From Aporrectodea caliginosa (taxonomy: Eukaryota > Annelida > Clitellata > Crassiclitellata > Lumbricidae): 64,000 nt of DNA. The notes under the pieces are model-generated. The model saw only the letters and a program-made list of their open reading frames with translations. It was not told the origin of the DNA and did not search any database. The DNA lies in the NCBI GenBank assembly GCA_020284085.1, contig JACEVL010000272.1, forward strand, positions 127,501 to 191,500. The letters run 5' to 3'. Positions within the stretch are counted from its first letter, which is position 1. Every line of letters begins with the position of its first letter. A program made the position numbers and the translations under genes. Shown here piece by piece: positions 7,234 through 59,124 of the stretch.

Positions 7234-9456
7234 ATGCCTTACCACAAGAAAAGAAAAACAGACAGACCACCAAGAGGACTGGTTCCAGAAGATGCAATGA
7301 AAGCTGCTGTCACTGCTGTTTTGCATGGCAAGGCAGTGAACACTGTCGCAAGGGAAAGTGGTGTTGATCGCATGACGTTAAAACGATACGTCAGGAAAAT
7401 GAGAGCAGACCCAAACACAATCTGTCGCCCTGTTTTCGTAACAACACAAGTTTTCACTGATGAAGAAGAGAAAGCGCTCTCCGATTATCTGCTTCATGCG
7501 GCTAAGATTCACTACGGGCTTTCTACAAAAACAACCCGGAAATTGGCGTTTGAATTTGGTGTGGCAATTTCAAAACAGATTCCAGAATCATGGAAAGCCA
7601 ACAACTGTGCAGGCAAAGACTGGCTGCAGTCTTTCATGAAACGCAGAGTGGAACTGTCTTTACGTTCTCCGGAAGCCACCAGTTTGGCTCGTGCCACAGC
7701 CTTCAATCGGCACACTGTCAGCGAATTTTTTACAAATTTGAGAGATGTTCGTACACGTTACAATTATGCACCACAGAGCATATATAATGTTGACGAGACT
7801 GGACTCACCACGGTGCAGAAGCCGGTGAAAATAATCGCAGGCCGTGGAGATAAACAAGTCGGCAGGATGACTTCAGCAGAACGGGGGACTTTGGTCACTG
7901 CCTGCTGCTCGGTCAACGCCATTGGAAATTCCATACCGCCTTTCTTCATCTTCCCTCGGGTACACTTCAAGGAGAGCATGATCCATGGAGGACCACCTGG
8001 ATGTGCTGGAACATCTAATCCATCTGGATGGATGAATGCTGCCACATTCTTGGAATGGATGAAGCACTTCATCAAACACACAAGGTGTTCACTGAGTGAG
8101 CCAGTTTTGTTACTGCTTGACAATCACGAGAGTCATATCTCAATCGATTGCTTGAATATGGCTAAGCAGCATGGAGTGACAATGCTTAGCTTTCCACCTC
8201 ACTGCAGCCACAAGCTGCAGCCACTTGACAGGTCTGTCTACGGACCTTTTAAAAGATATTACAATGCATCGTGCGATGATTGGGTTGTCACCAACACGAG
8301 ACCGATGACAATATTCGACATTGCTAAAGTAGCAAGTCAGCCTTATGCCCAAGCCTTCACGCCATCCAATATTGTTGCCGGATTTACGGTTGCTGGCATA
8401 GAACCGTTTAATCCCAACATTTTCAAGGATGACGAATTCCTGGCATCATCGGTTACTGACCGCCCAGAACCAGTTGTCATTTCCACCGTCACAGATACTG
8501 TAGGCCTACAACCATCAAGTGAGACGGTGACTGCCAATACTAGTCCGACTACACCTGGCCTGCCGTCGGATCAACCGCAGCCAATCACTGCAGTCGCAAC
8601 TAGCACTGTTTCAGCGTCAGACAATGTCACCGTATCTGCTGTTCCATCGACTGCATCTGCCGAATGTCGTTCCCCGAATGAAGAACCAATTACAGACGCA
8701 GAAACTCTTTCTTTGAGCCTGCAAAAAATAAAACCGTACCCGAAAGCTCCTGCTCGAAAAACTAACAGAGGTCGCAGACAGCAGCGCACACGAATTTTAA
8801 CTGATACACCTGTCCGAGATATAATTCAACTAGAACAGCAGAAGAAGAAAAACAAAGTCTCCAAAATTGATGTGAAAGGAAAAATGAAGAAAAACCAACC
8901 AGAACCCAAACTAAAAACCAACAGTTGCAGTAAGAGAATCAAAAGAACCTCGGGCCCAACCAAGACAAAAAAGGCGCGTCGAAAACTTGTTCTGACTGAT
9001 GAGAGTGACCGTGGTAATGATGAAGTCGCAAACATGGAAACCGATGAAGAAACTGGCCAGCCTCTTCGGGTTATGTTATCCGACAAATCTGACGATGATA
9101 TTAGATGTGACTTAGAAAGTGATGACGAGTCTTCCATCAGACGAGAAGATTTAAAATCCGGAGATTTTGTTGTAGTGCAGCTGAAAGGCTTGAAAACTGC
9201 CTTTCATTACATTGCTCGCGTTGAAAATCAACCTAATGAGCTGGACATTGAAGTTGTGTATCTGGAGAAGAAAAAGACACAGAAAGAGGACATTAAAATG
9301 GAACGATTTGTTATTCCAGAGCATTTGAAGAGATATGAGGTACCACTTGAGGACATTATCAAGAAACTGCCTCCCCCAATGATGACTGGGGGCACAAAGC
9401 GCACCAGCGCTCACTTGGTTTTCCCGGTGTCTTTGACGGAATTCAATCTGTCTTAA
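7234..9456 (+). CDS. Pogo-like transposase, DD35D, 740 residues
   Basis: This protein would bind the ends of its transposon and catalyse cut-and-paste transposition in the nucleus. Residues 19-56 look like a Psq-type helix-turn-helix (AVNTVARESGVDRMTLKRYV). A DDE_1 catalytic core follows with D187 in NVDETGL, D296 in LLLDNHESH and D332 in HKLQPLDRSVYGPFK, giving DD35D spacing. After about residue 430 comes a Ser/Thr/Pro-rich linker, then a strongly basic stretch (about 530-590, likely nuclear localisation) and an acidic segment. A C-terminal module of about 100 residues starts at LKSGDFVVVQLKG. It is longer than minimal pogo transposases because of this tail. The ATG lies two bases after a TTTGTTTCAG acceptor-like site at 7231, so a spliced 5' leader is likely. 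No internal stop or frameshift is seen. A domesticated host gene is unlikely because the flanking inverted repeats are perfect. Confidence 0.9.
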   Translation: MPYHKKRKTDRPPRGLVPEDAMKAAVTAVLHGKAVNTVARESGVDRMTLKRYVRKMRADPNTICRPVFVTTQVFTDEEEKALSDYLLHAAKIHYGLSTKTTRKLAFEFGVAISKQIPESWKANNCAGKDWLQSFMKRRVELSLRSPEATSLARATAFNRHTVSEFFTNLRDVRTRYNYAPQSIYNVDETGLTTVQKPVKIIAGRGDKQVGRMTSAERGTLVTACCSVNAIGNSIPPFFIFPRVHFKESMIHGGPPGCAGTSNPSGWMNAATFLEWMKHFIKHTRCSLSEPVLLLLDNHESHISIDCLNMAKQHGVTMLSFPPHCSHKLQPLDRSVYGPFKRYYNASCDDWVVTNTRPMTIFDIAKVASQPYAQAFTPSNIVAGFTVAGIEPFNPNIFKDDEFLASSVTDRPEPVVISTVTDTVGLQPSSETVTANTSPTTPGLPSDQPQPITAVATSTVSASDNVTVSAVPSTASAECRSPNEEPITDAETLSLSLQKIKPYPKAPARKTNRGRRQQRTRILTDTPVRDIIQLEQQKKKNKVSKIDVKGKMKKNQPEPKLKTNSCSKRIKRTSGPTKTKKARRKLVLTDESDRGNDEVANMETDEETGQPLRVMLSDKSDDDIRCDLESDDESSIRREDLKSGDFVVVQLKGLKTAFHYIARVENQPNELDIEVVYLEKKKTQKEDIKMERFVIPEHLKRYEVPLEDIIKKLPPPMMTGGTKRTSAHLVFPVSLTEFNLS

Positions 9457-13379: not shown

Positions 13380-13840
13380 TAATACTTGCAGTCTGTTATC
13401 AGTATGATAATGTTACGCCACTCCTCCGTGATGTTCTGCACTGATTGCCAGTTTCTCTCCGTATTGAGTTTAAAATCTGTTTGCTGGTATATAAGTCACT
13501 TCACGGTACCGCGCCTCAGTATCTGCGCGACTAATGTATTCGAACGCATTCCTCCGCTTCCGGGTTGCGACACCTATCGCTCGAGAAAAGCGATCTTCGT
13601 GAACAACGGGTGAGAACCCGCTTGGCTGATAGCGCTTTCTCAGTGACTGACCCCAGATGCTGGAACGGGCTTCCTCCTGCTCTACAAGCGGTGACTCAAT
13701 TGACTCCGTCATATCTGGACTCAATAGTTATCTGTTTTCTAAGGCCTACTCTGCTGTTAGCTGACTGTGAGGCGCCCTTGTTACGGCATGGCCGAGTAAT
13801 GGCGCCATATAAATTGTCATTGTTATTATCAATGACATCT
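13380..13840 (+). mobile_element. LINE 3' end relic
   Basis: Plus-strand translation reads VTPLLRDVLH, LPVSLRIEFKICLLVYKSLH and AFSVTDPRCWNGLPPALQAV. These are typical C-terminal reverse-transcriptase motifs. The 3' untranslated end GCCATATAAATTGTCATTG follows. The same 3' end type (GGCGCCC, then CATGCCGTTACAAGGGCG in reverse) recurs near 48.97 and 51.23 kb, defining a LINE family. Confidence 0.75.
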
Positions 13841-32018: not shown

Positions 32019-33542
32019 TCAGCCTAAGCAGTGTTCTGCATTCGCACCGTTCTGAAGTTGTCGAAGTTTTTGTTGAAGAAAACAGCTTATGATGTGCTCA
32101 GAAGGAAGACTGGGTTTGAGATTCTTAAATTCAAACAATGCTTCTGAGAGTGAGTGACAGCGATCGATCAGACATCTCACTTTTAAATATCTTGCCAAGA
32201 AGTGTCTTCTAAGAATATAATGACAACGCATGTTGTAACTCACTTCAAGAACTATAGAAAGTAAGCACTTGTCGGAATGAATCTTCTGGACAAAAAACTG
32301 ATTGAAGGTCCAATTAGAAGGTCTTTCGCTTTTCTGCAAAGACTCACTTCGTGGCAACAAATAATAGAACAGTGTGTGAAATCCAAGCAAACATCGGACT
32401 TCGCTGTCGAAAAAGGAGTCAAGCGGTGGCAACACCATTACATTGGCAAATGCAAGTTTCTTCGAGTCACTCTGAAGATCTCGATCCTCGAGAATTCGTT
32501 CACACAAATACAAAACTTCAGGATATTTGCGACGCTGGTACAGATACACAGCACGGTAACAATCAGCTGTATTGCAGTGAATGCCAAAGTCTTTGCCGAC
32601 GGCATTGTAAAATGATGTAATATTTTCTAAGGAAAATTCCATTAGCAATTGAATAATACCTTCTTCATCTGGCAAACATCTTTCATTGAGCGCTACTAAT
32701 TTATTCATTGGATCTGTTCTGTGGTAAACGCGCAAAACACTATTTCTGTTCGCTAATATTCGTGAAAATTTCCGATTTGTTATAGCCATCAAAATAACAT
32801 CGAGCGGAAATGTTGGAGTTATAAAAATGTTATTAGGTCCAAAAGCTCTAGCTTTTCTTTCAATTGACGAAATTGTTAAATAGTGAGCAACAACTTCTGG
32901 TGTAAGACAAATATCTATGAAAAACTGCCTCTTAGTATAATGCAAAGAAGCGTCTTTAGTCTTCCTGAAAAGTAAATAAAATCCAATTATCTCCGAAATG
33001 TCTTCAATATACAACAGACAGCCTGCATTCAATGTTTCTGTGTCTTCGTTTCGAGGCTTTTTATTCACGATCACTCTCGAGCAAAGGTCTATAACAGTTT
33101 GATATTCTGATGCGGCAAAATGAAGAGCCGCCATGTAGGACAAAGTTGCCTTGGCGATTGTGTTTGTTTTAGAATCCTTACATTCCAAAGCTTTCCTGAG
33201 AAGTACTTTTGATATTTCAGCCACAACTTTAACTTCTAGATTATGACTTGATCCAATCAGATTTTCCATCAGATCCTGAGCTCTTACGAAATATAATAGG
33301 CTTTTAGTAAGACAAGTGGTTAACGGTCTGGGCATGTTGTGGTGCTTGGATCTATAAAATTTTGGTTTGATCAAAACTTGTCTTATTTCGTCAACAAACC
33401 ATTCGCTGTCACAGTGAATTTCTTTACAGTCCAATAAATGGGCAGCGTGCAATATACGCAGCATCGATCCATAAAACCAGTAGCATGATTCAATTTCTGC
33501 GGATGGCCGACGATCATATCCATCCAAAATAACAAATAACAA
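32019..33542 (-). CDS. Truncated paralogue of the Mab-21/TPR-like protein (C-terminal half)
   Basis: An uninterrupted 507-codon minus-strand frame matches the C-terminal half of the larger gene at 45-48 kb along almost all its length. Shared blocks include YMAALHFAASEYQTVIDLCS, LNAGCLLYIEDISEIIGFYL, CNTADCYRAVYLYQRRKYPE, LCERILEDRDLQSD, MVLPPLDSFFDSEVRCLLGF and RRHFLARYLKVRC. The repeated helix pairs with A, L and Y at TPR-like positions suggest an alpha-solenoid. It lacks the CARD, TRADD-N-like and nucleotidyltransferase parts. The frame opens with TTG, not ATG, so it is either a downstream exon of a gene whose 5' part is lost, or a pseudogene still open. An acceptor-like ATATAG lies just upstream near 33546. 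Unlike the larger copy it has no stop before the conserved RRHFLARYL end. Confidence 0.7.
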   Translation of the reverse strand: MLFVILDGYDRRPSAEIESCYWFYGSMLRILHAAHLLDCKEIHCDSEWFVDEIRQVLIKPKFYRSKHHNMPRPLTTCLTKSLLYFVRAQDLMENLIGSSHNLEVKVVAEISKVLLRKALECKDSKTNTIAKATLSYMAALHFAASEYQTVIDLCSRVIVNKKPRNEDTETLNAGCLLYIEDISEIIGFYLLFRKTKDASLHYTKRQFFIDICLTPEVVAHYLTISSIERKARAFGPNNIFITPTFPLDVILMAITNRKFSRILANRNSVLRVYHRTDPMNKLVALNERCLPDEEGIIQLLMEFSLENITSFYNAVGKDFGIHCNTADCYRAVYLYQRRKYPEVLYLCERILEDRDLQSDSKKLAFANVMVLPPLDSFFDSEVRCLLGFHTLFYYLLPRSESLQKSERPSNWTFNQFFVQKIHSDKCLLSIVLEVSYNMRCHYILRRHFLARYLKVRCLIDRCHSLSEALFEFKNLKPSLPSEHIISCFLQQKLRQLQNGANAEHCLG

Positions 33543-34405
33543 ACCTATATCGCGAAAAACTTAACTAGTAAAATATTAGTTTCACGTAATCATCCATTTT
33601 CGTGCTTGCTGAAACTGATTATATAAGTTATTGTAGGTCGTCCTATATTCTAAAATTACCGCACTTACTAACAGTACTGTAGTCTATGCTTAGGTCCAAC
33701 GCTATAATTTTTTATACTGTGATAAATTGATAATTATATATTACTGTGACACGGGAAATTATCTAGCAAAGACACAACAGCGGTGGATCGAGTCATTCAT
33801 TAAACCTATGATTCTGTAAGTACGAATCAAAGTAAGCGTTTGCGTTTAAAATTTGAATCTCAATTTCTAAAAAACGCGGTATTGCTTATTTGCAAAATAA
33901 TTTCCTATCATAAGCTATATAGGCCTAAACGGCAGCTAGTTTGGACTTAATAGTCTGTTTGAACTCCCAAACAATTCCATTTTCGCTTTTCCGATACTCT
34001 AAAAATAAAGTTGTCTATATTTAGAATGCTAAGCCCAGCAAAATTACCCAAGTCTTGTTCAGTTTTTCTCTATCTTGATTGTATGTTTCCAGTTATGAAT
34101 TGGTATGGTCGTATTGAATAGTAATTGGAAACGGTTTTAGCATAATTATGATAACAGCGCATGGAATATTTGTGTCATAAGATTGTATTAGTAATATTGC
34201 TTCCATTTAATTTAGCATACAGGTCATAAGAATAATATTTCGCGTTGAGCAGCTTTCCTAATTAGCCTTCTCTGCGGTATTTTAATAATAAGATGAAAAT
34301 TAATGATGATTATAATATTATTAAGAATACTATTTATATAGCGCCATAGTGGCGAAGCCAGAGAAAATGACGATGTACGTGAGTTAAACTAATAAATGGT
34401 AGTCA
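33543..34405. other. Unassigned sequence upstream of the truncated paralogue
   Basis: No CARD, TRADD-N-like or Mab-21 N-terminal exon was found here on the minus strand. AT-rich. Confidence 0.5.
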
Positions 34406-39100: not shown

Positions 39101-41489
39101 CTCATTATTACTATCATTATCACTGCGTAGCCGGTATTTGACTGTTTTCGTTTGGAGGAGTTTTTTCCTACTTCTTATCTAAGACTACGCCATTCGATTT
39201 GTCCTAGGAAGATTTAACTCCACAAGTCATTTGGTCCCTCGAAAAAACTCCCTTAGTCAATTTGTCCTAGGAAGAATTAACTTCCAAGTCAATATTATGT
39301 CCTCGGAAGAATGAATTCCCCATTCAATTTGTCCTAGGAAGAATTAACTCCCCCAGTCAATATGTCTCAGGAAGAATTACCCCACCCCATTCAATTTGTC
39401 CTAGGAAGAATTAAGTTCCAAGTCAATAAAAGTATGTCCTAGGAAGAATTAACTCCCCAGTCAATATGTCCTTGGAAGAATTAACTCTCCCAGTCAATAT
39501 GTCCTAGGAAGAATTAACTCCCCTCATTCAAATTGTCCTAGGAAGAATTAACTCCTCAGTCAATATGTCCTAGGAAGAATTAACTCCCAAAGTCAATATG
39601 TCCTAGGAAGAATTAACTCCCAGTCAATATGTCCTAGGAAGAATTAACTCCCCATTCAATTTGTCCTAGGAAGAATTAACACCCAAGTCAATATGTCCTA
39701 GGAAGAATTAACTCCCCCAGTCAATTTGTCCTAGGAAGAATTAACTCCCAGTCAATATGTCCTAGGAAGAATTAACTCCCCCAGTCAATATGTCCTAGGA
39801 AGAATTAACTCCCCAGTCAATATGTCCTAGGAAGAACTCCCCCATTCAATTTGTCCTAGGAAGATTTAACTCCACAAGTCATTTGGTCCCTCGAAAAAAC
39901 TCCCTTAGTCAATTTGTCTTAGGAAGAATTAACTTCCAAGTCAATATTATGTCCTCGGAAGAATGAATTCCCCATTCAATTTGTCCTAGGAAGAATTAAC
40001 TCCCCCAGTCAATATGTCTCAGGAAGAATTACCCCACCCCATTCAATTTGTCCTAGGAAGAATTAAGTTCCAAGTCAATAAAATTATGTCCTAGGAAGAA
40101 TTAACTCCCCCAGTCAATATGTCCTTGGAAGAATTAACTCCCCCAGTCAATATGTCCTAGGAAGAATTAACTCCCTCATTCAAATTGTCCTAGGAAGAAT
40201 TAACTCCTCAGTCAATATGTCCTAGGAAGAATTAACTCCCCAGTCAATATGTCCTAGGAAGAATTAACTCCCAGTCAATATGTCCTAGGAAGAATTAACT
40301 CCCCCAGTCAATATGTCCTAGGAAGAACTATCTCCCCATTCAATTTGTCCTAGGAAATATTAACTCCCAAGTCAATATGTCCTAGGAAGAATTAACTCCC
40401 CAGTCAATTTGTCCTAGGAAGAATTAACTCCCCAGTCAATATGTCCTAGGAAGAATTAACTCCCCAGTCAATATGTCCTAGGAAGAATTAACTCCCCAGT
40501 CAATATGTCCTAGGAAGAATTAACTCCCCCATTCAATTTGTCCTAGGAAGAATTAACTCCCCAGTCAATTTATCCTAGGAAGAATTAACTCCCCATTCAA
40601 TTTGTCCTAGGAAGAATCAACTCCACTGGAGTGTCAATTCACCAACAGGAGTGTTTTAGTCCTAGTAACAATACACTCCACCGGTCAATTATTCCTAGTA
40701 AGAATTAACTCCACGATTCAATATATCCTGGGATAAATAGACTCCGGAGTGTTTAAAAGGGGACTACACCGGTGGAGTTGCCTTTGACTGATGCAAGACA
40801 GATACTACCTGAAGAAACGCCCTAAAATGCTTTCTTATTGCAGAAATCAAATTTGATCTTTTAAGTGGTCTGTCTCTTCCAGGCTGGTTTGAGCTGCTAG
40901 TTTAGAACAAGACGCTTGCACAATATGACAAGAAATACTGCTTCTTTCTTTTAGGTTCATATATTGCGATAATGCAGAAGTAACAGCAACATCGGTCTAT
41001 TTCCTGATGACCGCTGGCAAGAAATACATGCTGCCTAAGCTAGTCGACCTATGTTGCGGATACCTTCAGAAAGGTCTCCAGAGTGAGAATGTGTGTTCTA
41101 TACTAAATGAAAGCCTTGTGCTCGATGAACCAAAACTTGTGAAACGCTGTCTTGATCTTGTCGTGGAAAACTCATCGGAAGTCCTTAAACCGGAAAACTT
41201 GCAAAACGCTTCTCGCCAAACAATGGAAGCCATACTGAAACTGAATTCTTTAGAAGAAGATGAAATAGTAATATACAATGCATGCATCGATTGGGCTAAA
41301 ACTCAGCTTAGTAACCAGAAATCAATCGATCATCCAAACGATCAACAGATAAGAGAGATGTTTGGAGATCTTATCTACGAAATTCGCTTTCTAACGATGG
41401 AAGCAGAAGCATTTGCTGGACTAGTCGAAAGCAGCACTGTTCTTTCATACGAGGAACAATCATCCATACTTTGCTACATCTTAAATTAG
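36145..41489 (+). CDS. BTB-BACK protein (BTBD1/2/3/6-like), two coding exons, PHR domain after an in-frame TAG
   Basis: Members of this family bind Cullin-3 through the BTB domain and present substrates for ubiquitination. The coding exons are 36145-36428 and 40955-41489. The splice CTCAG|GTGTGC to TTCTTTTAG|GTTCAT restores the family sequence ELL-R-FIYCDNAEVTA. Exon 1 encodes the BTB fold (TDVCFKVGPPDG, RAHKYMLVSRSAVFEAMFSS, IRIEDIEPGVFRELL). Exon 2 gives the BTB end (SVYFLMTAGKKYMLPKLVDL) and a BACK domain. At codon 273 an in-frame TAG (41487-41489) stops it after SILCYILN. The same frame then continues for 166 codons with a PHR domain. Exon 1 follows an acceptor at 36128, so there is a 5' non-coding exon. 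Family members normally carry the PHR domain, so either the stop is a disabling mutation, or it is read through, or the short form is real. Confidence 0.85.
36540..37998 (-). mobile_element. LINE relic in the BTB intron
   Basis: The minus strand reads GPDGIPSSMAD at about 37970, then DFRHISITSILSRYLGENG, FTDQFGFRL (reverse-transcriptase fingers and palm) and, after frameshifts, VILGVTISDRIGFVAHIDKI. LYASPVWWGFATVGERNRLN, ADSTLFRSILSNPCHVLHDL and PPRKVTKYNTRPKPHDLTLP follow. It is a jockey/CR1-like element opposed to the host gene. It stops within a few bases of the foldback element that starts at about 37998. Confidence 0.8.
38150..38860 (+). repeat. Left arm tandem array of the foldback element
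   Basis: About 24 copies of the 30-bp unit, each with the CCTAGG palindrome. Spacers alternate between CATATTGACTGG-like and CAAATTGACTGG-like forms. Confidence 0.9.
38945..39050. repeat. Telomere-like CCCTAA repeats in the foldback loop
   Basis: ACTAACCCTAACCCTGACCC and two further CTAACC clusters are separated by ACTCTCACGACGC. This gives about three units of a 37-bp repeat that contains degenerate TTAGGG-type telomere motifs. Confidence 0.75.
39190..40620 (-). repeat. Right arm tandem array with 652-bp higher-order repeat
   Basis: About 45 units in the opposite orientation to the left arm. A distinctive run of variant units (GATTTAACTCCACAAG, GTCCCTCGAAAAAACTCCC, GAATTACCCCACCCC) at 39211 recurs in the same order at 39863. 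That shows a segmental duplication within the arm, with a period of about 652 bp. Confidence 0.85.
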
Positions 41490-41990
41490 CGTAAGAGAGG
41501 GAGCATGAAGTTCAACTGTGACAAAAGGATTTGTAAGGAACAGTGCGTTGACCGGAGTGGAAGCGTTACTGGCACGTGGAAATCTGGCTCAGATGCCATT
41601 GACGTAAAAACCGACAGAAAAGTTCTCATAACTGGCTTAGGTCTTCTTCCTGAAAATAATGCAAACGGATCAGGATACACTCTTGACGTTGAAATTCTAA
41701 AGGAATCGGTATCAGTGTTCAAGATGTCATCCCTCGTTCCTTACACAGGGAACTCTACACCATATAAAGTGGCTTTTCAGACACCGATACTCATAGAACC
41801 TGGAATTCTGTGTACGGTTGTTGCCAATTCTTGCACCGGTAAAGCTTTGTATCAGTTGATCTCTTGTCTGCCAATATGTACAAAAGACAATGTTACATTC
41901 ACGTTTTCCGCAACTGTATGTAGATCGAACAACAGTACTAGTCCCAGTTCTGGCCAAATTCCGCAAATATATTTCAGGATTCCAAAATAG
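41490..41990 (+). CDS. PHR domain continuation of the BTB gene (after in-frame TAG)
   Basis: In the same reading frame as the BTB-BACK exon, with only TAG between, comes RKRGSMKFNCDKRICKEQC. A PHR beta-sandwich follows: SGSDAIDVKTDRKVLITGLG, SGYTLDVEILKE, FQTPILIEPGILCTVVANS and, near the end, GQIPQIYFRI. The last block is the usual PHR C-terminal motif. In this family the PHR domain supplies substrate binding. A fresh ATG at 41505 could start a separate product, but the natural reading is one gene interrupted by a stop. No splice pair that removes the TAG is evident: the nearest GTAAGA begins after it. Confidence 0.7.
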   Translation, partial: RKRGSMKFNCDKRICKEQCVDRSGSVTGTWKSGSDAIDVKTDRKVLITGLGLLPENNANGSGYTLDVEILKESVSVFKMSSLVPYTGNSTPYKVAFQTPILIEPGILCTVVANSCTGKALYQLISCLPICTKDNVTFTFSATVCRSNNSTSPSSGQIPQIYFRIPK

Positions 41991-43969: not shown

Positions 43970-44600
43970 CACAAAGCTTTTTAGTAGAAACCTGCAAATG
44001 ATGTGTTCAAACAGCATATTCAGTCATTACTTCTGACTACGGAAGATTACATTCGATACAACATCTGATTTGCAGATATCTTGCAAGCAAAATTTCCAAC
44101 AAAATGGTGACATTTAATGTAGCAATGAAAAATCAATAAAAAAACAAGGGTAAATAGGGCCGGGCAAACCGGTGTTCAAATGTTTAACTCAACTTTCACC
44201 ATATCGTCATTCAGAGGTGATGAATACTAATGGAGTGTTTAAAAACACCAGATTCCACCTATTACTGTATGCTAGTTGGGCAAACATGTGCTCAAACGCT
44301 GAATCGGCAGTTACCTCAACTCTTCCCCATATCGTCTTTCAGAGTTGATAAATAATATGGGGTCTGACATCCAAGAAACGACTGTACGACTCTATCAAAA
44401 AGAGTCAATCGGTTGTAGGCAACAAACATTCGCTAATGCAAGCATCTAAAAATCGCGCCCGATGTCAGGCTCAGGAAGACTTGTAAAGGTACAAAGCAGG
44501 CAATTGTGTTGCACTGGATGTCAAAGTCTTTGCGGATCACACTGTAGAATGAAATTATATTTTCTAAAGCATAGAACACCAATTACTGAATGCAGATCAT
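43970..44600 (-). pseudogene. Decayed fragment of the Mab-21 family C-terminus
   Basis: 43981-44110 is a degraded copy of 45001-45150 (shared words ATATTGCAAG-type, GGAAGATTRCA and CGATACAACATCTGA), which encodes the C-terminal HFLARYL region. 44331-44570 is a degraded copy of 45251-45545 (CAAAGTCTTTGCRRATCAC, GTTGCACTGGATG). The order is the same as in the intact gene, so the 3' end was duplicated in tandem and has since lost its frame. Confidence 0.7.
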
Positions 44601-44977: not shown

Positions 44978-45256
44978 TTATTTAATAACACGAAGCTTTC
45001 GTACAAGAAACCTGCGAATTATGTGCTCAAACGGAAGATTAGTTTCCTGAACAGCAAATTCAGACAGTGCTTCTAAATATGGAAGATTGCAGTCAATACG
45101 ACATCTGACGTTCAAATATCTTGCAAGGAAATGTCTTCCAAGAAAGTACTGGCTTTTTAATGACGCTCTCTGGCTTTGAAAGAGATTCTGAGAGATCAGT
45201 ACTCTGAAATCGCACATCTCGGAGAAACCAATGTGCACATTTCCCCATATCGTCAT
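44978..45256 (-). pseudogene. In-frame C-terminal extension beyond the TGA of the Mab-21 gene
   Basis: The frame of the 45257-48060 exon continues after its TGA for 92 codons. It contains FLGRHFLARYLNVRCRID and LPFEHIIRRFLVRKL, clear matches to RRHFLARYLKVRCLID and LPSEHIISCFLQQKL at the end of the intact paralogue at 32 kb. This region was therefore once coding. The current stop removes it unless it is read through. About six residues are missing relative to the paralogue near the TGA, in a T-rich stretch. Confidence 0.65.
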
Positions 45257-48200
45257 TCAGAGGTGATAAATAATAAAAAAGAGTGTGTGAAATCCTAGCA
45301 ACGACTGTATGTCTCTATCGAAAAAAGAGTCAAGCGGTGGCATCACCAACACATTCGCAAATGCAAATTCCTTCAAATCGCTCTGCAGATCAGGCTCATG
45401 CAGAATTCGTTCACATAAATGCAACACTTCATCGTATTGATGACATTTGTAAAGATACAAAGCACGGTAGCAATCAGCCGTGTTGCACTGGATGCCAAAG
45501 TCTTTGCAAATCACATTGTAGAATGTAGTCAGATTTTCTAAAGCACATTCCATCAGAGCATAAATTACTGTCTCTTTAAACATCAAAGGATTCATGTCGG
45601 CTGCTGTCAAGGAATATGTTCTGCGGTAAATGCTCGGTTTGGTAGCATCAAAATGAATACCTGACTTCATTGCAGCAATATATTTCGGCTTTCTTAAAGC
45701 CTTCAAATAATCGTCCAAAGGAAATGCTGAATCTGGTAAACCATGATAAAAATCAAAACTTGTGGATATTCTTTCGGCAGATAATGCAGTTAAATAATGA
45801 GCAAACACCTCGGGTGATAGACGCAGATCGAGATAAAACAGTCTGCCAATGTAATGAAGATCATTGTCAGTAATATTCTGGTGAAGCACACGCAATCCAA
45901 CGATTCTTGCGACATCGTCAATAAACAATAAACATCCTGCATTCAGTGATTCTTTTTCCGTTTGAGGAGTATGATCTTCAAAAACTGCAGAACAGAAGTG
46001 CATTACCTGTTTGTATTCTGATGTTGCAAAATGGAGAGCAGCCAGATAGGCCAAAGCTGCAGGAGCAATCCCATTAGATTTTGAATCTTCGTATTCTAAA
46101 GCTCTTCTAAGAAGCTCTTTTGACATGAGAGACAGTAGCTGAAATTCGGAACGACTATTTGATCCAGTTAAATTTTTCAATAGATTCTGAGCACAGATGA
46201 ATTGAAACCGACTATTTTGGGTCGTGTACATTGTCGGAAAGTTATGATACTGAGATCTCACAATTTTAGGTGGCATCGAAATTGCGTTGACATATTCAAC
46301 AAAGAGACTACCATCCCATGAGATCTCTCCAAAACTTAAACCGTGTGCAATATGCAAAGTATACAGTAGAAAATCATAGTACTTGAAACACAAGACCTTC
46401 TCTGTTGTTGTAAGATATGTCATTCTGTTGTGTAGTTTCGAATCAAGATTTCTTTTATACTGTCCGTGTCTTAAGCTGTGGCGCGGCAATCCTGAACATA
46501 AACCGTACTCAACCGCACAACGACAGATCTCACTAGAATTTTGGAATTTGAAAGAAAACACCGAATCCAAAGATTCCAATTCAAGCGCTTTCTGGTGTTC
46601 AAGGTAAGACCGCAAATAATCCATGGAATCTGGTATTACATTCCTTGTGCTCAAAAACTGAAATTGTGTCCAAGTGATTGGCAGTATGTAATTCACAACG
46701 AACCAATGAGAAAGAATGCCACGATTGTGGAATTCATTAAGTCGTCTTTCAGTCTTTTCAAGCTTTGTGATGTTCGATGGCTCATAAAATAGATTTGCTT
46801 CAGGAATAAAATAGTTCGGACAATGTCTCGTCTTCAGCCATTCTGAAAGCCTGTTCAATAACTCACAGCAGATTGTAATAACAGAAGAGGAATTCCACCA
46901 TTCCGGCGACATCTCTTCACAAGTCCATAACATCAGCGTCTTTAAATGATACGGAGATAGAACCTCATCCTCCTTTGCACAATCCTTTTGTATTAATTCT
47001 CTCTTTGCAAAGAATCTCAGCAAATGATAGACAATTTGCTGAATTTGAGTCCAACTCTGAAGTAAAATTATTTCTGCGAGTGAAAATGACAATCTCCACT
47101 GATAAATATCGTCCCTGCAGGAACGATGCTGGACATAAACAACGTGACAACCATTTTGTACAACTTCGGAGATATTATCCATTGTCGGCCATCCGAAATT
47201 TCTCAGTCGAACTGGCCAATTGTTGGCTTCTCTAGGCCACTGAGGGCAAAGTACGCTATTGACGGTATCAAATCCAAAATAAAAGTTGGAATCTCTTCTA
47301 CATGACATTGTATGCTTTATTTGCGGACCGCAAACAATTCTTGGAAACGATACACCACTCAACTGAGTAAGTTTTGAAGTTGCAACATTACCTATGTTGA
47401 ACGCAACGCACATACCTGGATCAGCTGTATGGTTAAATTCGTACTTTTTATATTTCCAATTGTAGTTCATTTCCCCGAAAACGTGCAATCGAACAAAACC
47501 TGGAAACTCATGGTATGATTCAATCTTGTAGCATGCGATCGTATCGGCTAGGCCACTCAAATCACTTGGCAACACTGGAAAGTCACCACTGAAGACCAGC
47601 GCATCAGCATTGCAGAACAGAAAATCCATGTCCGTAATGCATGTATTCAGCGGACGGATATAGAACTCCGCAGAGCTACCACACAAAATCGAATACACTT
47701 TCGATGGAGGGTTCTGTGACATGTATAAGTTTTGCAAGTGATCAGAAGCAAAATGGCACGACTTTGGAAGCAATTGGCAAGTGCTAACGATGAACTCAGA
47801 TGCCATTTCTTCAGTCGAAATAACCGCATAGTCATCAACCTTGAAGATTAATGCATCAACGTCGCTGGTGCATGATGCATTCAGCGGTCGGATGTAGAGT
47901 TCCGCCAAGCTGCCACACAAAAGAATATTCGATTTCAAAATCGAATACTCTTTTGGTGCAAGGCTCAGTGACATGACTAAATTATGCATGCAATCTGAAG
48001 TAAGAGAATACGACTTCGGAAGTTCTTGGACGATGATATCCGACACATTTTCTTCGATTGCTGCAACCAGAGGAGAACAGACTAACTATGATCATCATCA
48101 TCACTATTTGTAGTCGTCGGTAACATGATCAAGTGTTCTTATTATTTTGTTTATCAAGATCGAACTCAAATCAATCGGCGGTAAATTTACGTTGCTAAAT

Positions 48201-48873
48201 TATTCTAATGTCTTCAATGCCGTACTTGACTTTGGTAAGCAGTCTACCTATGTGCATGATAAATATCACCACCTGACGCCACCTATATTTTATCAATAAT
48301 AAACTACGTAAGCAATATGAAAAAATATGAAACTGAACCAACCTTTAGTAGCAAAATATTTATTGATATTTTCCAGGTCATCGTCTTTTATGTAGATCTC
48401 TGTTATAACCACATCTGTTTGTGAGTCTGCTCGTTTACAGAGTTCTTCAATATTGAGTTTCAGTGTACCATCTTCTATGTCGCTCTTCATTTCTACCCAC
48501 GACTCAAGTGTTTCGAAATAATAGTAGAAAACGATGCTTTGACCAATCTTGACGGCAATAATTTTATCTCTCACCATTTCTAATATTCTATCGACGTCAT
48601 CAATCGCTGTGCCCTGAAGTAGATTTGTAATTTTGTTAACTACTCTAACTTCCGCTGAAGGTTCTTGAAGCACTGCGTGGACTGGCAGTACAGCTGAAAT
48701 TAAACCACACATATCAAATTGGGCAACATCCAATGCTTAATAAAATAATTCAATAGTCTCAAAGTTAAACTCATTTATAGACGCTGGTCTTTAAGTGAAT
48801 GGGGGTCGTCGACTGTTAAATATTCAGATAGGGAAACCTTAAATATTTAATAATGAACACAGCAGATTTGCAT

Positions 48874-48964
<91 letters not shown>

Positions 48965-51596
48965 GTGAATTTATATGGCGCCGTAACACAGCCATGCCGT
49001 TACAAGGGCGCCTCACAGTCAACTAATTAATGGTCGACTCGAGAATAATCTTAAATGCTGGTTTAATTTATAAATATTTAACTGTATTTTGGTAGACATT
49101 GAGTTTTAACGTTGTGTTTTCGTCACCTACATGTACTAAATGACTATACATATGAAGGACAAGAAGTATAAGAAAGAGCAGTAAAGACACGGGTACAATA
49201 CTGAGGTTGTAGGAATCTCTGGTTATGCCACAGTTGGAATACTGCATCCATGTTTGAAGGCACAAGACAGATATACTAGGAAACATGCAAAGCAGCCTAG
49301 AGGAAACAAGGTTGATGACAATGATGAGGCAGAAAGAAATATGAAGCACAACTGAAGCCAGCATAGTGTCTAAAAGCGGTCATAGTTGAATTAGATTAGA
49401 TTCAATTCGACTAGATTACACAACATCCAATATTATTTAATATTGGATTGGGTTACATTCTGCTGGGTTCAGTTATATTATGTAGGATTGCGTTCGTTTC
49501 AGGTTAGATTCTTAATGGCCTAACTTGACGTAAACACGTTCACTTACCGCCACCTTTCTCTAGAATTTCAGCGATATGATCCTGATTAGAATCACGAAGA
49601 CACTTTATTGTATTTTCATAGTCACTAATGCTTCCACGCCTCAAATGGTCTACGAGGACTTCATTCTTTTCTGAGTCGGTTGCCTTGCTGTAGATAAGTT
49701 GCTGCTGGCGGTGGCTTAGTACTCTTTCAGCCATGAGTATATCAACCAAACCTCCTCTCAACTCGATAAGATCTTTGAGGAAGCCGTAATTTGCATCGAT
49801 TATATTTAATTGCGCTTCTTCCAATGGCCAATCTTTTAATCTATTTGCACTGCAAACTTTTCTCAAATCGTTTGGTAGCTCTACTAAAAACAGACAACGT
49901 GACATACGAATGAAGATTCCGTCTTAAGAAATATCTTAAATTACTTCTTAAATATAATGGTTCTAAAAATAGTGGTGTAAATTTACCGATAAAATATTTT
50001 TGCGGTAAGAAATCCAGATTTTTACTGGTCGAATTGGTAAAACATGGTTAAAATGGTAAAACATGGTTTAAGTTATATATCTTGGCTAGTGTTCCCCAAC
50101 GGTGTCTTTATCAGTTACAGACAAATACTGACATGCCTTAGTAGTCCAACTGAACTGCTAAATAGATGGTTTGTTTCCAAAAACATGTTTTTATTACAAA
50201 GTCAGGTTTCGTCCACTGTCAAAAATTGCAATAATTGTTGTGATTCAGCTCAGATGAAAATTTCTCTTATAATTGGTGGCCTATGTATAAGGTCTCATTC
50301 ATTTTAAAACACTACAACTTATCCGTTCCAGTAGGTAGAATTTAGAGAAATAGAAGATAGGTAGGCGCCAGTGTTGGTGTCTATTAGGCCCTACACTATA
50401 GCCTCAAAGGTGGATTTCTGCTACAGAAAATGGTGCACGAAAACCAGTTGAAATTTTGGAAGACAGCGTTTGACTTTGTTAGACATGATGTAATACGGGC
50501 GATGCTAAAATTATTTAGATTAGGAAGGCTGACGCAAATGATCCTAAATGTTTGCAAAACCGCGAAGTCAACAGTCAGAGAAGGCAATGATCTGGGTGAT
50601 TGGTTCAGCATCTCAAGAGAAAAGACAGAGGGACCATATAATTTATTTCGCCGGCAAAATTCATTACATTATCTGGAAAGAGTGATTGACAAAATCCAAG
50701 GCACTGAAACATGAACTCAGAATCAGCAACCTAAATAAAAAAATAAAAACTTTAAGGATTTACCATTTTAATCATTTTTACCATATTTACCGGTTTTTTT
50801 TACCACGGTAAACTATAATGCGGATTTTTTACGAGTAAAAATCATTTCACATCACTACTGCAACATCTATAATAATAATTGATGTGTAGTGTACATGAAC
50901 GAAATTTCTCATCGCCTCACAGCGTCAGAAAGACCAGCTTATCAATGGCACTAAGTCGCTTGAATTTAGCAGGAAGCAGGTTAATATTCTAAAAGTTCAA
51001 GAAGCCAAGAAAGGCAATGAGCTGCTAAGGCAGAGATGGGTACGGTATGATGTGTGTTTGAATCATTGTGGAAGAAGAAAATAATTTAAGACAGTTTGAG
51101 TTAAGTTTTGAGATTTCAGTATTCTAGAAGAGTTGAGGTAGAGGAAGTTCACGGAATTTCTTTAAAGAGTAAGAACTGCCCTCTAAGTCTACTATCATTA
51201 TGATGATGATGATGATGAATACGACAATTTCTACAGCGCCGTAACACGGCACATGCCGTTACAAGGGCGCTTTGACACGATACAAAACTATGTACAACCC
51301 CAGGAATTTAGTTTTATCAATGTCTGCAACTCATCCATTATTATACATTGTAGCTACGACTCAACAATTTTACCGCCTATCTGAACCATGACTTGCGTTG
51401 AACTTGCCCCCGTCATATATTAAGTAATTTGCCAAATGTTGTTGGTTTGTGTCTCGAAGTGCGTTGATAAATTCTTCCTCGTTGTCCTTTTCAATAATGT
51501 AGTCCAAGAGCCTTTCATTTTTTTTCCAGATCGTTGATCGGCTTCTCACTTCATCCACTTCTTCTTTGGACAGAATAGCATTTGCCAGTAGGCAGT
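45257..51596 (-). CDS. CARD-CARD-TRADD-N-like-Mab-21/cGAS-like multidomain protein (four exons, N-terminus incomplete)
   Basis: The minus-strand exons 51596-51408, 49883-49548, 48693-48343 and 48060-45257 all join in phase 1, giving about 1,225 residues. Mab-21 proteins share the nucleotidyltransferase fold of cGAS, and invertebrate cGAS-like receptors sense RNA or DNA and make cyclic dinucleotides. CARD domains signal by homotypic assembly. The large exon has two active-site-like segments, CGSLAELYIRPLN..SDVDALIF and CGSSAEFYIRPLN..TDMDFLF. Each holds a GS pair and a DxD. After these come the Mab-21 helical signatures YQWRLSFSLAEIILLQSW and LSPYHLKTLMLWTCEEMSPE. A helical TPR-like C-terminus of about 500 residues is shared with the 32-kb paralogue. 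The plausible role is a cytoplasmic nucleic-acid sensor wired straight to death-fold signalling. The third catalytic acid could not be placed and no zinc-binding insertion was seen, so enzymatic activity is uncertain. No start codon exon was found, and the 5' side is disrupted by the duplication at 51.6 kb. An in-frame TGA trims the C-terminus. Confidence 0.75.
48343..48693 (-). CDS. TRADD-N-like linker domain exon
   Basis: The 351-base exon (117 codons, phase 1-1) lies between TTTAATTTCAG and AAAG|GTTGGT. Its centre DRILEMVRDKIIAVKIGQSI followed by VFYYYFETLESWVEMKSDIE and DGTLKLNIEELC resembles the TRADD-N type domain seen next to NACHT and death domains in invertebrate immune proteins. That type shows a GSIVF strand, then a helix with L--L and a G-L turn. 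It is a fair but not certain match. Confidence 0.5.
48884..49025 (-). mobile_element. (AAT)n microsatellite at the tail of a LINE 3' end
   Basis: About 78 bp of AAT units join directly to ATATGGCGCCGTAACACAGC and CATGCCGTTACAAGGGCGC, the reverse of the LINE 3' end found at 13.8 kb. The microsatellite probably grew from the tandem tail of that LINE. It lies in the intron between the CARD2 and TRADD-N-like exons. Confidence 0.7.
49180..49340 (+). mobile_element. LINE reverse-transcriptase scrap
   Basis: The plus strand reads VMPQLEYCIHV, the LEYC-Q-W-type motif of non-LTR reverse transcriptases, then degenerates. Confidence 0.45.
49548..49883 (-). CDS. Second CARD exon
   Basis: The 336-base exon (112 codons, phase 1-1) lies between CTGTTTTTAG and GGCG|GTAAGTG. 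It reads ELPNDLRKVCSANRLKDWPL, then the CARD: AQLNIIDANYGFLKDLIELR, GGLVDILMAERVLSHRQQQL, IYSKATDSEKNEVLVDHLRR, TIKCLRDSNQDHIAEIL. All six helices are present with the typical L-D-L-, ILT-like and FL-L--- pattern. Death-fold CARD modules assemble filaments with other CARDs such as those of caspases and adaptors. Confidence 0.7.
49906..50429. other. Intronic sequence, nothing recognised
   Basis: Between the two CARD exons. No further domain exon was seen. Confidence 0.4.
50431..50712 (+). mobile_element. LINE reverse-transcriptase fragment (endonuclease-RT type)
   Basis: The plus-strand frame KTAFDFVRHDVIRAMLKLFR, LTQMILNVCKTAKSTVREGN and DLGDWFSIS is the palm region (FD-V-R--LW, then a V--G---WF strand), followed by LHYLERVIDKI. 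It belongs to the same family as the relic at 15.7 kb. It lies in the CARD1-CARD2 intron, antisense to the gene. Confidence 0.7.
51195..51285 (-). mobile_element. LINE 3' end with (ATG)n tail
   Basis: ATGATGATGATGATGA joins TTCTACAGCGCCGTAACACG and CATGCCGTTACAAGGGCGC. Same 3' end family as at 13.8 and 48.97 kb. Confidence 0.65.
51408..51596 (-). CDS. First CARD exon (partial CARD, GC-AG donor)
   Basis: The 189-base exon reads DCLLANAILSKEEVDEVRSR, STIWKKNERLLDYIIEKDNE and EEFINALRDTNQQHLANYLI. It aligns with helices 2-6 of the CARD in the next exon but lacks helix 1. Its donor is GGGG|GCAAGTT, a consensus GC-type donor, at the same position and phase as the GT donor of the next CARD exon. 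The acceptor-like CTTTAG lies only about six bases from the breakpoint of the 1.72-kb duplication, so the 5' half of this exon was probably lost in that rearrangement. Confidence 0.6.
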
Positions 51597-51602
51597 CTAA
51601 AG

Positions 51603-53322
51603 CTTTGGTCTGGCGTCTATACGTCCCTTTAGAAAGTATCGCAACTTGGCTATTTTACTCATTGCTTTCGCCATTGCACTTGCTTCACTTTTACTGCACG
51701 CTTTTGTTGTATAACCGATCTGAAAAAGCAACATACAACTGGATGCAATGTTAAATTAGTGTTTCATCATAACTGAAGTACGAGTCTCCTGTGGGTAGGC
51801 CTACGTCGTCTCAAGTAATTCATATTATTCTAAAATCGGTTAAAATATGTAAGTAGGACAGTAGGTTGTAGGCCTAGCCTTTATTCAAACGGTGCACGTT
51901 ATATAGCTTTGCAAAGTGTTGGACCCCCATACAACTGCTAATATTAGCCTATACAGGCATGCTGCATGAACCATGGTCATGAAATGAAATGCTCCACTGA
52001 CATTCTCAAATGAGTTGGTGCTCATAACTACGCGGCATGCAGGCCCACAGCATCGAGCTATTCAAACAAGAAGCGAAGGCCCAGCAGAGGGAGCAAACGG
52101 AGCGTTTAATTAAATGTTTTTGCATATTTTACAAAAATAAAATCTTTTGATTATTATAATTAAGCTTATTACAACACGATTTTCAAAGCGAAAGTCACTT
52201 AATAATTACCCAAGTCCTTGACCATTATTTATTTTGAAGGTTGTAACGTGTTCATGAATTGTTCCATGGAAAAAGACTTTTCGTTTAGCCTACTTCCTCT
52301 GGCGAATTTTTTAAATGTACAAAGTAATTAAAATGGAAAGTAAAAATGGGCTCAAACATTAGTTAAAATCCTTCCAACAGCCAGTGGGGTAACGACGCCC
52401 GGGCAATTACGGGTTCCATTTTGACTCTATAGTTAGACCACTGCCAACAGTGCTGGCGGCTGTTGGGATCCGCGCCAGACCCCTAATCGCGGGGGCGAGT
52501 GCCGAGGGTGACGCGATCGGTTGCTTTCGTCACCCTCGTTACTCGCTAGGCCTAGTTATCAGGTCAACATTTAAAACTTTGCTCCTCCTACTGTAACACA
52601 AATTTTTGAGGTCGCCCATGTCTAAGTGGCCTCTAATTATACGCTACACTGTACGTATTGTAATAGGCCTAGTCAGTAGTCAGTTCATTAATTCAGCCAG
52701 CTCTATTCGCATAATCACTTAACACTACAGTTGGGCCTACAGGCGTATTGGCCTAATACGCCTGTAGGCCCACTGTTTCTATATTAGCCACTGCTGCTGT
52801 TCGAGCAATGAGCTTGGTATTGGGTGCCCTGGAGACCTGGATGTCAACGAACCGCCTGCGCCTCAACCCATCAAAAACCCAATTTATCTGGCTGGGCACT
52901 TGGCAGCAGCTTGCGAAGCTAGACCTTTCTACCATTGCTGCTGACTTCCCTCAGTTTGTCTTTTCCTCTGTTGTCCGTGACCTTGGAGTTACACTGGACC
53001 AAGAGATAACCTTTGCCCCTCATATAAACCGCCTCTGTCGTGATTCATACTATCAGTTACGCCAGTTCCGCACTGTTGCTCGCTCACTTACTTCAGACTC
53101 CACCGCTACACTTATCCACTCTTTTATCACAGTCCGACTTGATTACTGTTGCTCACTCTATGTTGGCCTCCCAGCTAGTCGGTTGGGGTGCCTGAACCCG
53201 GGTCCTGCGCTCTGCTGCACGCCTTTGCGGACGTATCCCCAAATTTGGCCACGTCTCAGGTTATATGCTGGATGTGCTTCATTGGCTCCCCCTACTTCAG
53301 CGGATCTCGTATCGGATCATCG
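51603..53322. repeat. Tandem duplication, unit 1 (1,720 bp)
   Basis: Nearly identical to 53323-55038. The differences I can see are a 5-base AAATG duplication near 51985, one substitution near 52600 (ACACAAA versus ACATAAA), two extra T in unit 2 near 54680, and one C less in unit 2 near 54913. These account exactly for the 4-base length difference. Both units begin CTTTGGTCTGGCG, as does the junction at 55039. Confidence 0.95.
52733..52771. repeat. Perfect 17-bp palindrome (also at 54448-54486)
   Basis: Arms GGGCCTACAGGCGTATT and AATACGCCTGTAGGCCC with a five-base loop GGCCT. It sits immediately before the 5' truncation point of the LINE in both duplicate units. Confidence 0.9.
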
Positions 53323-55250
53323 CTTTGGTCTGGCGTCTATACGTCCCTTTAGAAAGTATCGCAACTTGGCTATTTTACTCATTGCTTTCGCCATTGCACT
53401 TGCTTCACTTTTACTGCACGCTTTTGTTGTATAACCGATCTGAAAAAGCAACATACAACTGGATGCAATGTTAAATTAGTGTTTCATCATAACTGAAGTA
53501 CGAGTCTCCTGTGGGTAGGCCTACGTCGTCTCAAGTAATTCATATTATTCTAAAATCGGTTAAAATATGTAAGTAGGACAGTAGGTTGTAGGCCTAGCCT
53601 TTATTCAAACGGTGCACGTTATATAGCTTTGCAAAGTGTTGGACCCCCATACAACTGCTAATATTAGCCTATACAGGCATGCTGCATGAACCATGGTCAT
53701 GAAATGCTCCACTGACATTCTCAAATGAGTTGGTGCTCATAACTACGCGGCATGCAGGCCCACAGCATCGAGCTATTCAAACAAGAAGCGAAGGCCCAGC
53801 AGAGGGAGCAAACGGAGCGTTTAATTAAATGTTTTTGCATATTTTACAAAAATAAAATCTTTTGATTATTATAATTAAGCTTATTACAACACGATTTTCA
53901 AAGCGAAAGTCACTTAATAATTACCCAAGTCCTTGACCATTATTTATTTTGAAGGTTGTAACGTGTTCATGAATTGTTCCATGGAAAAAGACTTTTCGTT
54001 TAGCCTACTTCCTCTGGCGAATTTTTTAAATGTACAAAGTAATTAAAATGGAAAGTAAAAATGGGCTCAAACATTAGTTAAAATCCTTCCAACAGCCAGT
54101 GGGGTAACGACGCCCGGGCAATTACGGGTTCCATTTTGACTCTATAGTTAGACCACTGCCAACAGTGCTGGCGGCTGTTGGGATCCGCGCCAGACCCCTA
54201 ATCGCGGGGGCGAGTGCCGAGGGTGACGCGATCGGTTGCTTTCGTCACCCTCGTTACTCGCTAGGCCTAGTTATCAGGTCAACATTTAAAACTTTGCTCC
54301 TCCTACTGTAACATAAATTTTTGAGGTCGCCCATGTCTAAGTGGCCTCTAATTATACGCTACACTGTACGTATTGTAATAGGCCTAGTCAGTAGTCAGTT
54401 CATTAATTCAGCCAGCTCTATTCGCATAATCACTTAACACTACAGTTGGGCCTACAGGCGTATTGGCCTAATACGCCTGTAGGCCCACTGTTTCTATATT
54501 AGCCACTGCTGCTGTTCGAGCAATGAGCTTGGTATTGGGTGCCCTGGAGACCTGGATGTCAACGAACCGCCTGCGCCTCAACCCATCAAAAACCCAATTT
54601 ATCTGGCTGGGCACTTGGCAGCAGCTTGCGAAGCTAGACCTTTCTACCATTGCTGCTGACTTCCCTCAGTTTGTCTTTTTTCCTCTGTTGTCCGTGACCT
54701 TGGAGTTACACTGGACCAAGAGATAACCTTTGCCCCTCATATAAACCGCCTCTGTCGTGATTCATACTATCAGTTACGCCAGTTCCGCACTGTTGCTCGC
54801 TCACTTACTTCAGACTCCACCGCTACACTTATCCACTCTTTTATCACAGTCCGACTTGATTACTGTTGCTCACTCTATGTTGGCCTCCCAGCTAGTCGGT
54901 TGGGGTGCCTGAACCGGGTCCTGCGCTCTGCTGCACGCCTTTGCGGACGTATCCCCAAATTTGGCCACGTCTCAGGTTATATGCTGGATGTGCTTCATTG
55001 GCTCCCCCTACTTCAGCGGATCTCGTATCGGATCATCGCTTTGGTCTGGCGGTCCTTGCTGGGCCTAGCCCCTGCCTATCTACGTGACCTCTGCTGCCCT
55101 ACTTTGGGTGCTCCGGGTCGTCGCTCTCTCCGCTCTACTGAGCGGTGCGTGGTCATGGTCCCTTTTGCCCGCACAGCTACTAAGCAGAATCGGGCCTTCT
55201 CAGTGGTTGTAGCTGCGTTGTATTGAGGCTTCCGGCTTTCGAGCCTTACA
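52772..55250 (+). mobile_element. 5'-truncated CR1/L2-like LINE, split by the duplication
   Basis: The plus strand reads RAMSLVLGALETWMSTNRLR, NPSKTQFIWLGTWQQLAKLD, VVRDLGVTLDQEITFAPHIN, RLDYCCSLYVGLPASRLG, RVLRSAARLCGRIPKFGHVS and MLDVLHWLPLLQRISYRIIA. The frame is nearly open. The ancestral copy is 52772-53322 joined to 55039-55250, where SLLGLAPAYLRDLCCPTLGA and an AFSVVVAALY end complete it. Small indels in each unit break the frame at different points, so they arose after or during the duplication. Confidence 0.8.
53323..55038. repeat. Tandem duplication, unit 2 (1,716 bp)
   Basis: Second copy of the unit above, followed at 55039 by the true continuation of the LINE coding region. Confidence 0.95.
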
Positions 55251-58674: not shown

Positions 58675-59124
58675 TTTGGCATAGTCTTATAGAGCACTTT
58701 GCGATAAGTTGCGGGATTTCCTCATTGCGATGCCACACTTCAACAATTCATCACCACCGTCTTCACCGCCACAGACAGCATCATCACCACCACAGACAGC
58801 ATCATCACCACCACAGGCAGAATCTTTTCCACCACAGACAACTGTGTCTTCATGCAGGACAGTGAACCTTGCCACACAGCGAACCTGATAAAGAATTTCT
58901 TCAATGACGTTGGTTTAGAGGTTCTTCCGTGGCCGGGCAATTATAGTCCGGATATGAACCCAATAGAAGGAATCTGGCACAACTTGAAGGACAAAGTCAA
59001 CGACGACGTCTCCACTAACAAACGGCTACTAATCGAACGAATTGTTGAAGTGTGGCATCGCAATGAGGAATTCCCGCAACTTATCGCAAAGTACTATAAG
59101 ACTATGCCAAAACGTATAAAGTAG
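58675..59124 (+). mobile_element. Tc1/mariner transposase 3' fragment with inverted copy of its own end
   Basis: The plus strand from about 58840 reads CVFMQDSEPCHTANLIKNFF, then LPWPGNYSPDMNPIEGIWHN and TMPKRIK, stop. This is the second D and the E of a DD34-type catalytic core (QD--PCH and SPD-NPIE--W) and the C-terminus. The last 85 bp (59038-59123) are repeated inverted at 58668-58751, giving a stem with a loop that contains a CACCACAGACAGCATCAT triplet-like repeat. It is not functional: the N-terminal two thirds are missing. Confidence 0.75.

Follow-up and report, generated by a model that had tools for sequence, protein, structure and literature searches.

A candidate chimeric receptor gene joining tandem CARDs and a TRADD-N-like domain to a Mab-21 nucleotidyltransferase in Aporrectodea caliginosa

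The gene lies on the minus strand of a 64,000-nucleotide stretch of Aporrectodea caliginosa contig JACEVL010000272.1 (hereafter, the window) and comprises four exons, E1 to E4, that encode two CARDs, a TRADD-N-like domain, and a Mab-21-type nucleotidyltransferase (NTase) with a long C-terminal region (Table 1). Joined, the exons give a frame of 1230 residues (E1, 51612-51408; E2, 49880-49548; E3, 48693-48343; E4, 48060-45257), interrupted by introns of 1527, 854, and 282 nt, with all exon junctions in phase 1. The introns begin with GCAAGT, GTAAGT, and GTTGGT, respectively, and only 3.3% of GT/GC sites score at least as high as each of the three donors. Acceptors were ranked against 514 AGs by a simple home-made scoring: the E4 acceptor is strong (top 0.6%) and in phase 1; the E1 acceptor, at 51719, is in the top 2.5%; and the E2 and E3 acceptors are middling, with 8-14% of AGs scoring equally high (14% for E2). 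The splice sites are conserved in paralogues.

A preliminary description of this DNA had proposed four minus-strand exons, all of phase 1; its junctions and joined frame hold, but its E1 start and E4 end are wrong. Specifically, it had E1 beginning at 51596, a candidate that we rejected, as the acceptor there is weak (46% of AGs score equally high) and seven paralogues have residues 1-91 within a single frame; the exon instead starts upstream, at the acceptor at 51719, with the initiating Met at 51674 following a 5' UTR. The E1 donor is GC rather than GT, making the first intron one of the GC-AG type.

Table 1. Features of the locus, in window coordinates.
Feature	Position	Strand	Content
E1	51408..51719	-	5' UTR and CARD1; Pfam CARD 2.5e-10
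E2	49548..49880	-	CARD2, phase 1-1 exon; Pfam CARD 3.1e-6
E3	48343..48693	-	TRADD-N-like domain (predicted), phase 1-1 exon
Intron 3	48061..48342	-	282 nt; candidate recombination site
E4 part 1	47846..48060	-	Partial NTase N-terminus, including a GS and a DxD
E4 part 2	46760..47845	-	Complete Mab-21 NTase and Mab-21_C
E4 part 3	45257..46759	-	Long C-terminal region kept in the ~960-aa Mab family
Rest of Mab C-terminus	44978..45256	-	Two further frames; compared with intact C-termini
Tandem duplication	51602..55051	+	1.72-kb copies, 99.5% identical; left edge inside CARD1

The order CARD-CARD-TRADD-N-like-Mab-21 had been read correctly: the CARD and Mab-21 parts are matched by Pfam, and the TRADD-N-like part by its predicted fold. 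In particular, E1 and E2 match the CARD family (PF00619) at 40.7 and 27.5 bits, both above the curated cut-off of 23.9, and E4 matches PF03281 at 30.5 bits and PF20266 at 54.1 bits, both above their cut-offs of 24.1 each. The exon-by-exon Pfam check that had been proposed therefore finds CARD and Mab-21 in the expected order, but leaves E3 without a TRADD-N match. CARD2 has a dN/dS of 0.22 against the copy L041 (67 codons, NG86 only). Two papers are drawn on below: PMC8195603 (Kaur et al. 2021) and PMC9980059 (Li et al. 2023).

The assignment of E3 comes from its predicted structure, an RRM-like four-stranded sheet with two kinked helices, which matches the TRADD N-domain. The turn between b2 and b3 carries an invariant G-x-S in eight sequences, and the uS motif described in PMC8195603 is not matched exactly. 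Pfam returned nothing for the window E3 at E up to 10; two of seven relatives likewise had no match, and the other five matched unrelated families below cut-off (E 0.036-0.14), with no TRADD-N model. A single-sequence PDB search, a profile search, and NCBIfam gave chance-level rows only. The TRADD-N-like domain has a dN/dS of 0.50-0.53 (112 codons) and, searched alone against public proteins, gave one match, P0121, 73% identical and from a 1.3-kb metagenome contig.

The earlier reading of E4 as a Mab-21 NTase with GS and DxD motifs is borne out by the Pfam scores and by the catalytic residues kept in its second unit. The closest solved chain is 8gjy, cGAS-like receptor 1. The exon is composite: its opening segment is a truncated NTase that shares 48% identity with the beginning of the complete unit 2, and such an opening is odd for a working enzyme and counts against a working fusion. 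Unit 2 contains an active site with all three Asp present (GS at 47680-47675, DxD at 47632-47624, and the third Asp at 47269-47267). Among 61 public relatives (those passing a length filter among 120 of 155 matches listed), all 61 have GS and the third Asp, and the two DxD aspartates occur in 60 and 61. The strict cGLR motif given in PMC9980059, h[QT]GS X8-20 [DE]h[DE]h X50-90 h[DE]h, does not occur in E4, which has Cys before GS and a second spacing of 116, and E4 thus falls outside the cGLRs as that rule strictly defines them; none of 62 family sequences has a second spacing of 50-90, the range being 92-141.

Unit 2 is 62-70% identical to near-full-length genomic Mab copies among the matches listed, and belongs to their ~960-aa family. 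The dN/dS of the Mab unit is 0.40-0.53 against five copies, and that of two intact copies between themselves is 0.45-0.51. The long C-terminus previously described is conserved in this family, but it extends past 45257 in other frames; four intact copies, compared at their C-termini, place the true end at 44978. Its E4 portion matches no known domain by sequence, and a TPR match, weak and below cut-off, was obtained in two of six relatives.

The window copy differs from its relatives at the start of the Mab unit. Among 20 distinct genomic copies bearing the motif CQL[LIV]PK, 18 have an ATG 20 codons before it, mostly right after an AG; of the two others, one has its ATG at 17 codons and one has no ATG at 20. 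In the 61 public relatives, at most 46 residues stand ahead of the same motif column. At the conserved start position, unit 2 of E4 has a valine codon, a loss that would be expected if the Mab unit is now internal. The E4 acceptor coincides with the start of Mab homology, and all 19 other Mab copies compared lack an equally strong in-phase acceptor within 400 nt.

Three frame breaks are present in the window copy, one in CARD1 and two close to the Mab C-terminus. Across seven paralogues, a single open frame covers CARD1 residues 1-91; in the window copy the match spans only 16-91, so E1 carries a frame break, with the first ~21 codons and the remainder in different frames and helix 1 out of frame. 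Across this break, which coincides with the edge of the tandem duplication, CARD1 and CARD2 align at their FLK motifs. The duplicated segment comprises the 5' end of the gene and part of a reverse-transcriptase-like element, and the joint lies in a stretch of ~15 bp common to CARD1 and that element. By eye, the element resembles a non-LTR retrotransposon; Pfam gave nothing for its reverse-transcriptase-like frame at E 0.001. Both Mab C-terminal breaks are at homopolymer runs, where assembly errors are common. The allele as assembled cannot make a full-length protein. The three breaks mean either that the copy died very recently or that the assembly is wrong there, and the lack of a stop in ~1230 codons likewise suggests recent damage or assembly error.

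Searches of the 1.1-Gb assembly place the CARD-CARD-TRADD-N part and the Mab part in two distinct families, each much expanded. The best 150 of 463 candidates were scored for CARD1, and the best 150 of 866, the window included, for CARD2; three Mab searches scored the best 150 of 917, 48 of 1947, and 150 of 640 candidates; and TRADD-N gave 129 matches at E up to 1. As only the best candidates were scored, these counts are lower bounds, and further meetings of CARD-TRADD-N with Mab may have been missed. For 109 of the 129 TRADD-N matches, a same-strand CARD2 occurs no more than 15 kb upstream (median 1.4 kb), compared with 4 in the downstream control. CARD1 precedes in order at seven of the eight closest TRADD-N loci among the matches listed (four on C283 and one each on C4316, C3789, and C434); the eighth, on C4368, has CARD2 and no CARD1 among those matches. 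CARD-CARD-TRADD-N is thus a multi-gene module. The 109 matches have the death-fold plus TRADD-N constant part and the lineage-specific expansion set out in PMC8195603.

The C-terminal partner of the module at the window locus is Mab-21. NACHT was considered as the usual partner of CARD-TRADD-N and rejected: of nine NACHT matches in the genome, one (on C4) shares a contig with any of the CARD or TRADD-N matches listed, at more than 0.5 Mb. With nine NACHT matches against at least 109 CARD-TRADD-N and at least 150 Mab-21 matches, CARD-TRADD-N proteins may serve in this animal in the place that NLRs take in others.

Among scored matches, the two families meet only at the window locus, with one uncertain exception. 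Within 20 kb of the 198 Mab matches listed (200 less two C-terminal pieces of copies already counted) lie 1 of 129 TRADD-N and 1 of 150 CARD2 matches, both at the window locus. At the exception, C434:259094-280461, the four parts follow one another on one strand in the sequence CARD1, CARD2, TRADD-N, Mab, with the Mab exon (from a further best-150 Mab listing) 12.7 kb downstream of TRADD-N; it is a possible second fusion and may be due to chance, the expectation for such a case being 0.35 at about 300 Mab matches listed. Downstream of two close paralogues of the module, no Mab above chance was found in 3.5 kb (C283:198981) or 0.59 kb (C4316:2120). In the upstream regions of 20 Mab copies, no CARD1 or TRADD-N was found at E 1e-3 within up to 9.5 kb (3.6 and 5.8 kb in two regions), and a search for CARD or TRADD-N at E 5 gave a best value of 0.04. 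Among 2810 candidate public proteins, in a search limited to relatives of 0.55-1.75 times the query length with short words in common, none had a CARD-CARD-TRADD-N N-terminus at E up to 0.01. C4316 retains, at 89%, the TRADD-N donor and the first ~41 nt of intron 3, and the far end of intron 3 is a GAT-rich stretch resembling Mab 5' flanks, a weak likeness because it is a simple repeat.

The strong in-phase acceptor, the lost Mab start, and the conserved exon borders make a single spliced unit, as judged from sequence, the better-supported reading. We consider it likely, with a probability of roughly one half, that the four exons are spliced into a chimeric receptor whose NTase would detect nucleic acid and whose CARDs would signal by assembly; the likeliest reading is that this receptor arose by recombination in intron 3 and was recently damaged or mis-assembled. 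The most serious alternative, appreciably less probable and yet substantial, is that the juxtaposition is dead or dying, recombination in a Mab-21 cluster having cut short a CARD-CARD-TRADD-N gene, leaving a Mab-21 copy downstream of it, with no working fusion. The three frame breaks, the lost Mab start codon, the partial NTase duplication, the duplication edge inside CARD1, and further Mab-21 family fragments on the same strand of the window, at 32022-33560 and about 44010-44570, would all fit such a remnant. A remnant would, however, sit poorly with about 1230 joined codons free of stops, with a Mab dN/dS resembling that of the intact pair, and with a strong in-phase acceptor exactly where Mab homology begins; moreover, two of the three breaks fall in error-prone homopolymer runs.

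A second alternative, which we regard as unlikely, accepts one fused protein but has a cyclic nucleotide as its output, the CARD-CARD-TRADD-N part clustering or localising the enzyme and STING-type receptors signalling. The complete set of catalytic residues in unit 2, conserved in 60-61 of 61 relatives, argues for it, as does the predominance of lone second-messenger enzymes among the cGLRs of PMC9980059, but tandem CARDs are an established contact-signalling module in other receptors, the RLRs. Two live genes, with CARD-CARD-TRADD-N splicing to another, distant exon and Mab-21 expressed from an internal Met, would agree with the own ATG, just after an AG, at which the Mab copies checked normally begin and with the usual absence of Mab near CARD-TRADD-N among scored matches, but are improbable given that the conserved ATG is gone in the window and that the 282-nt gap makes a plausible intron of matching phase with strong sites.

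RIG-I and MDA5 carry two CARDs in tandem at the N-terminus, followed by a catalytic domain that senses nucleic acid. The chimeric receptor would have formed, and by analogy with RIG-I would work, as follows. Recombination inside intron 3 would have set a Mab-21 gene behind a CARD-CARD-TRADD-N gene; the Mab-21 gene would have gained a new acceptor at its front, and the new exon would have been spliced to the TRADD-N donor. In the protein, the tandem CARDs would, as in RIG-I, be held in check until the NTase binds ligand; ligand on the NTase would cluster or open the protein; and the CARDs would then nucleate a filament, recruiting CARD-bearing caspases or adaptors, with TRADD-N adding a contact surface. 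We infer contact signalling by the CARDs after sensing from this same analogy; a cyclic nucleotide released from the intact active site may be a further output. It is a more speculative suggestion, and on balance a doubtful one, that the gene represents a receptor class in which a cGAS-type NTase is hard-wired to tandem CARDs, like the helicase of RIG-I, so that sensing of nucleic acid sets off CARD filaments directly in addition to making a second messenger, and which arises by recombination between the CARD-CARD-TRADD-N and Mab-21 repertoires, with the C434 locus as a second product.

The window protein resembles RIG-I and MDA5 in having tandem N-terminal CARDs and a predicted sensor catalytic domain, and differs in having an NTase in place of the helicase and a TRADD-N-like domain between; no DExD/H helicase or RIG-I C-terminal domain was matched by Pfam in the exons. 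It may thus work like an RLR, yet it is no RLR by domains. Like the cGLRs of PMC9980059, it has an NTase core, a Mab-21_C bundle, and GS-DxD-D, and the Mab expansion is large, as in some bivalve cGLRs described there; 87% of cGLRs in that source are single enzymes, fusions with TPR, with ANK, and of multiple cGLRs are named, and the word CARD is absent from the main text. Unlike the ~960-aa genomic Mab-21 family of which unit 2 is a member, whose copies usually begin at their own ATG with no CARD or TRADD-N upstream at E 1e-3 in 20 regions, the window unit has both ahead of it.

The closest published architecture is that of oyster XP_011454060.1, a HEPN-Ig-DED-TRADD-N-Mab-21-TPR protein (PMC8195603). 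Both proteins have a death-fold and TRADD-N ahead of a Mab-21/cGAS domain in a lineage-specific expansion; the oyster protein, compared by description only, has one DED with N-terminal HEPN and Ig where the window protein has two CARDs, and ends in TPRs where the latter has its long C-terminal region. The same source reports, for marine invertebrates, expansions in which death-fold plus TRADD-N is combined with variable C-termini, and suggests that retrotransposons help to make them. In the titles, abstract openings, and text passages searched, among them passages of PMC10732462, PMC6321704, PMC10855445, and PMC9334734, no CARD-Mab-21 fusion was found; an unlisted example, in a supplement for instance, is possible. 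The preliminary description knew of no protein of exactly this order; that holds for the literature searched, but the claim needs qualifying by the published DED-TRADD-N-Mab-21-TPR relative. What is new here is the CARD-CARD version, as a variant, and the finding that CARD-TRADD-N itself is a large family in the Aporrectodea caliginosa genome.

If the gene is expressed, diffusible cyclic nucleotides and death-fold assembly, the two main intracellular routes for reporting foreign nucleic acid, would be joined in one protein, and which of the two outputs dominates would become testable. Intron recombination between two large repertoires is a plausible step in the building of invertebrate immune receptors, and the locus would have caught it while the two parental families, the exons at the border, and the loss of the start codon are all still legible.

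Several other features of the window were observed. Intron 2 contains a perfect 29-copy ATA/ATT array (48875-48962), and a short dispersed repeat, 89% identical, occurs in intron 2 (48968-49011) and intron 1 (51226-51270); the segment 48956-49026 also resembles 13757-13829. On the plus strand, 40929-41987 encodes BACK and PHR domains in one frame split by a single in-frame TAG at 41487-41489, a BTB-BACK-PHR-like gene that is either broken or read through, and frames of DDE transposase type are present at 7219-9453 (PF03184) and 58708-59121 (PF13358).
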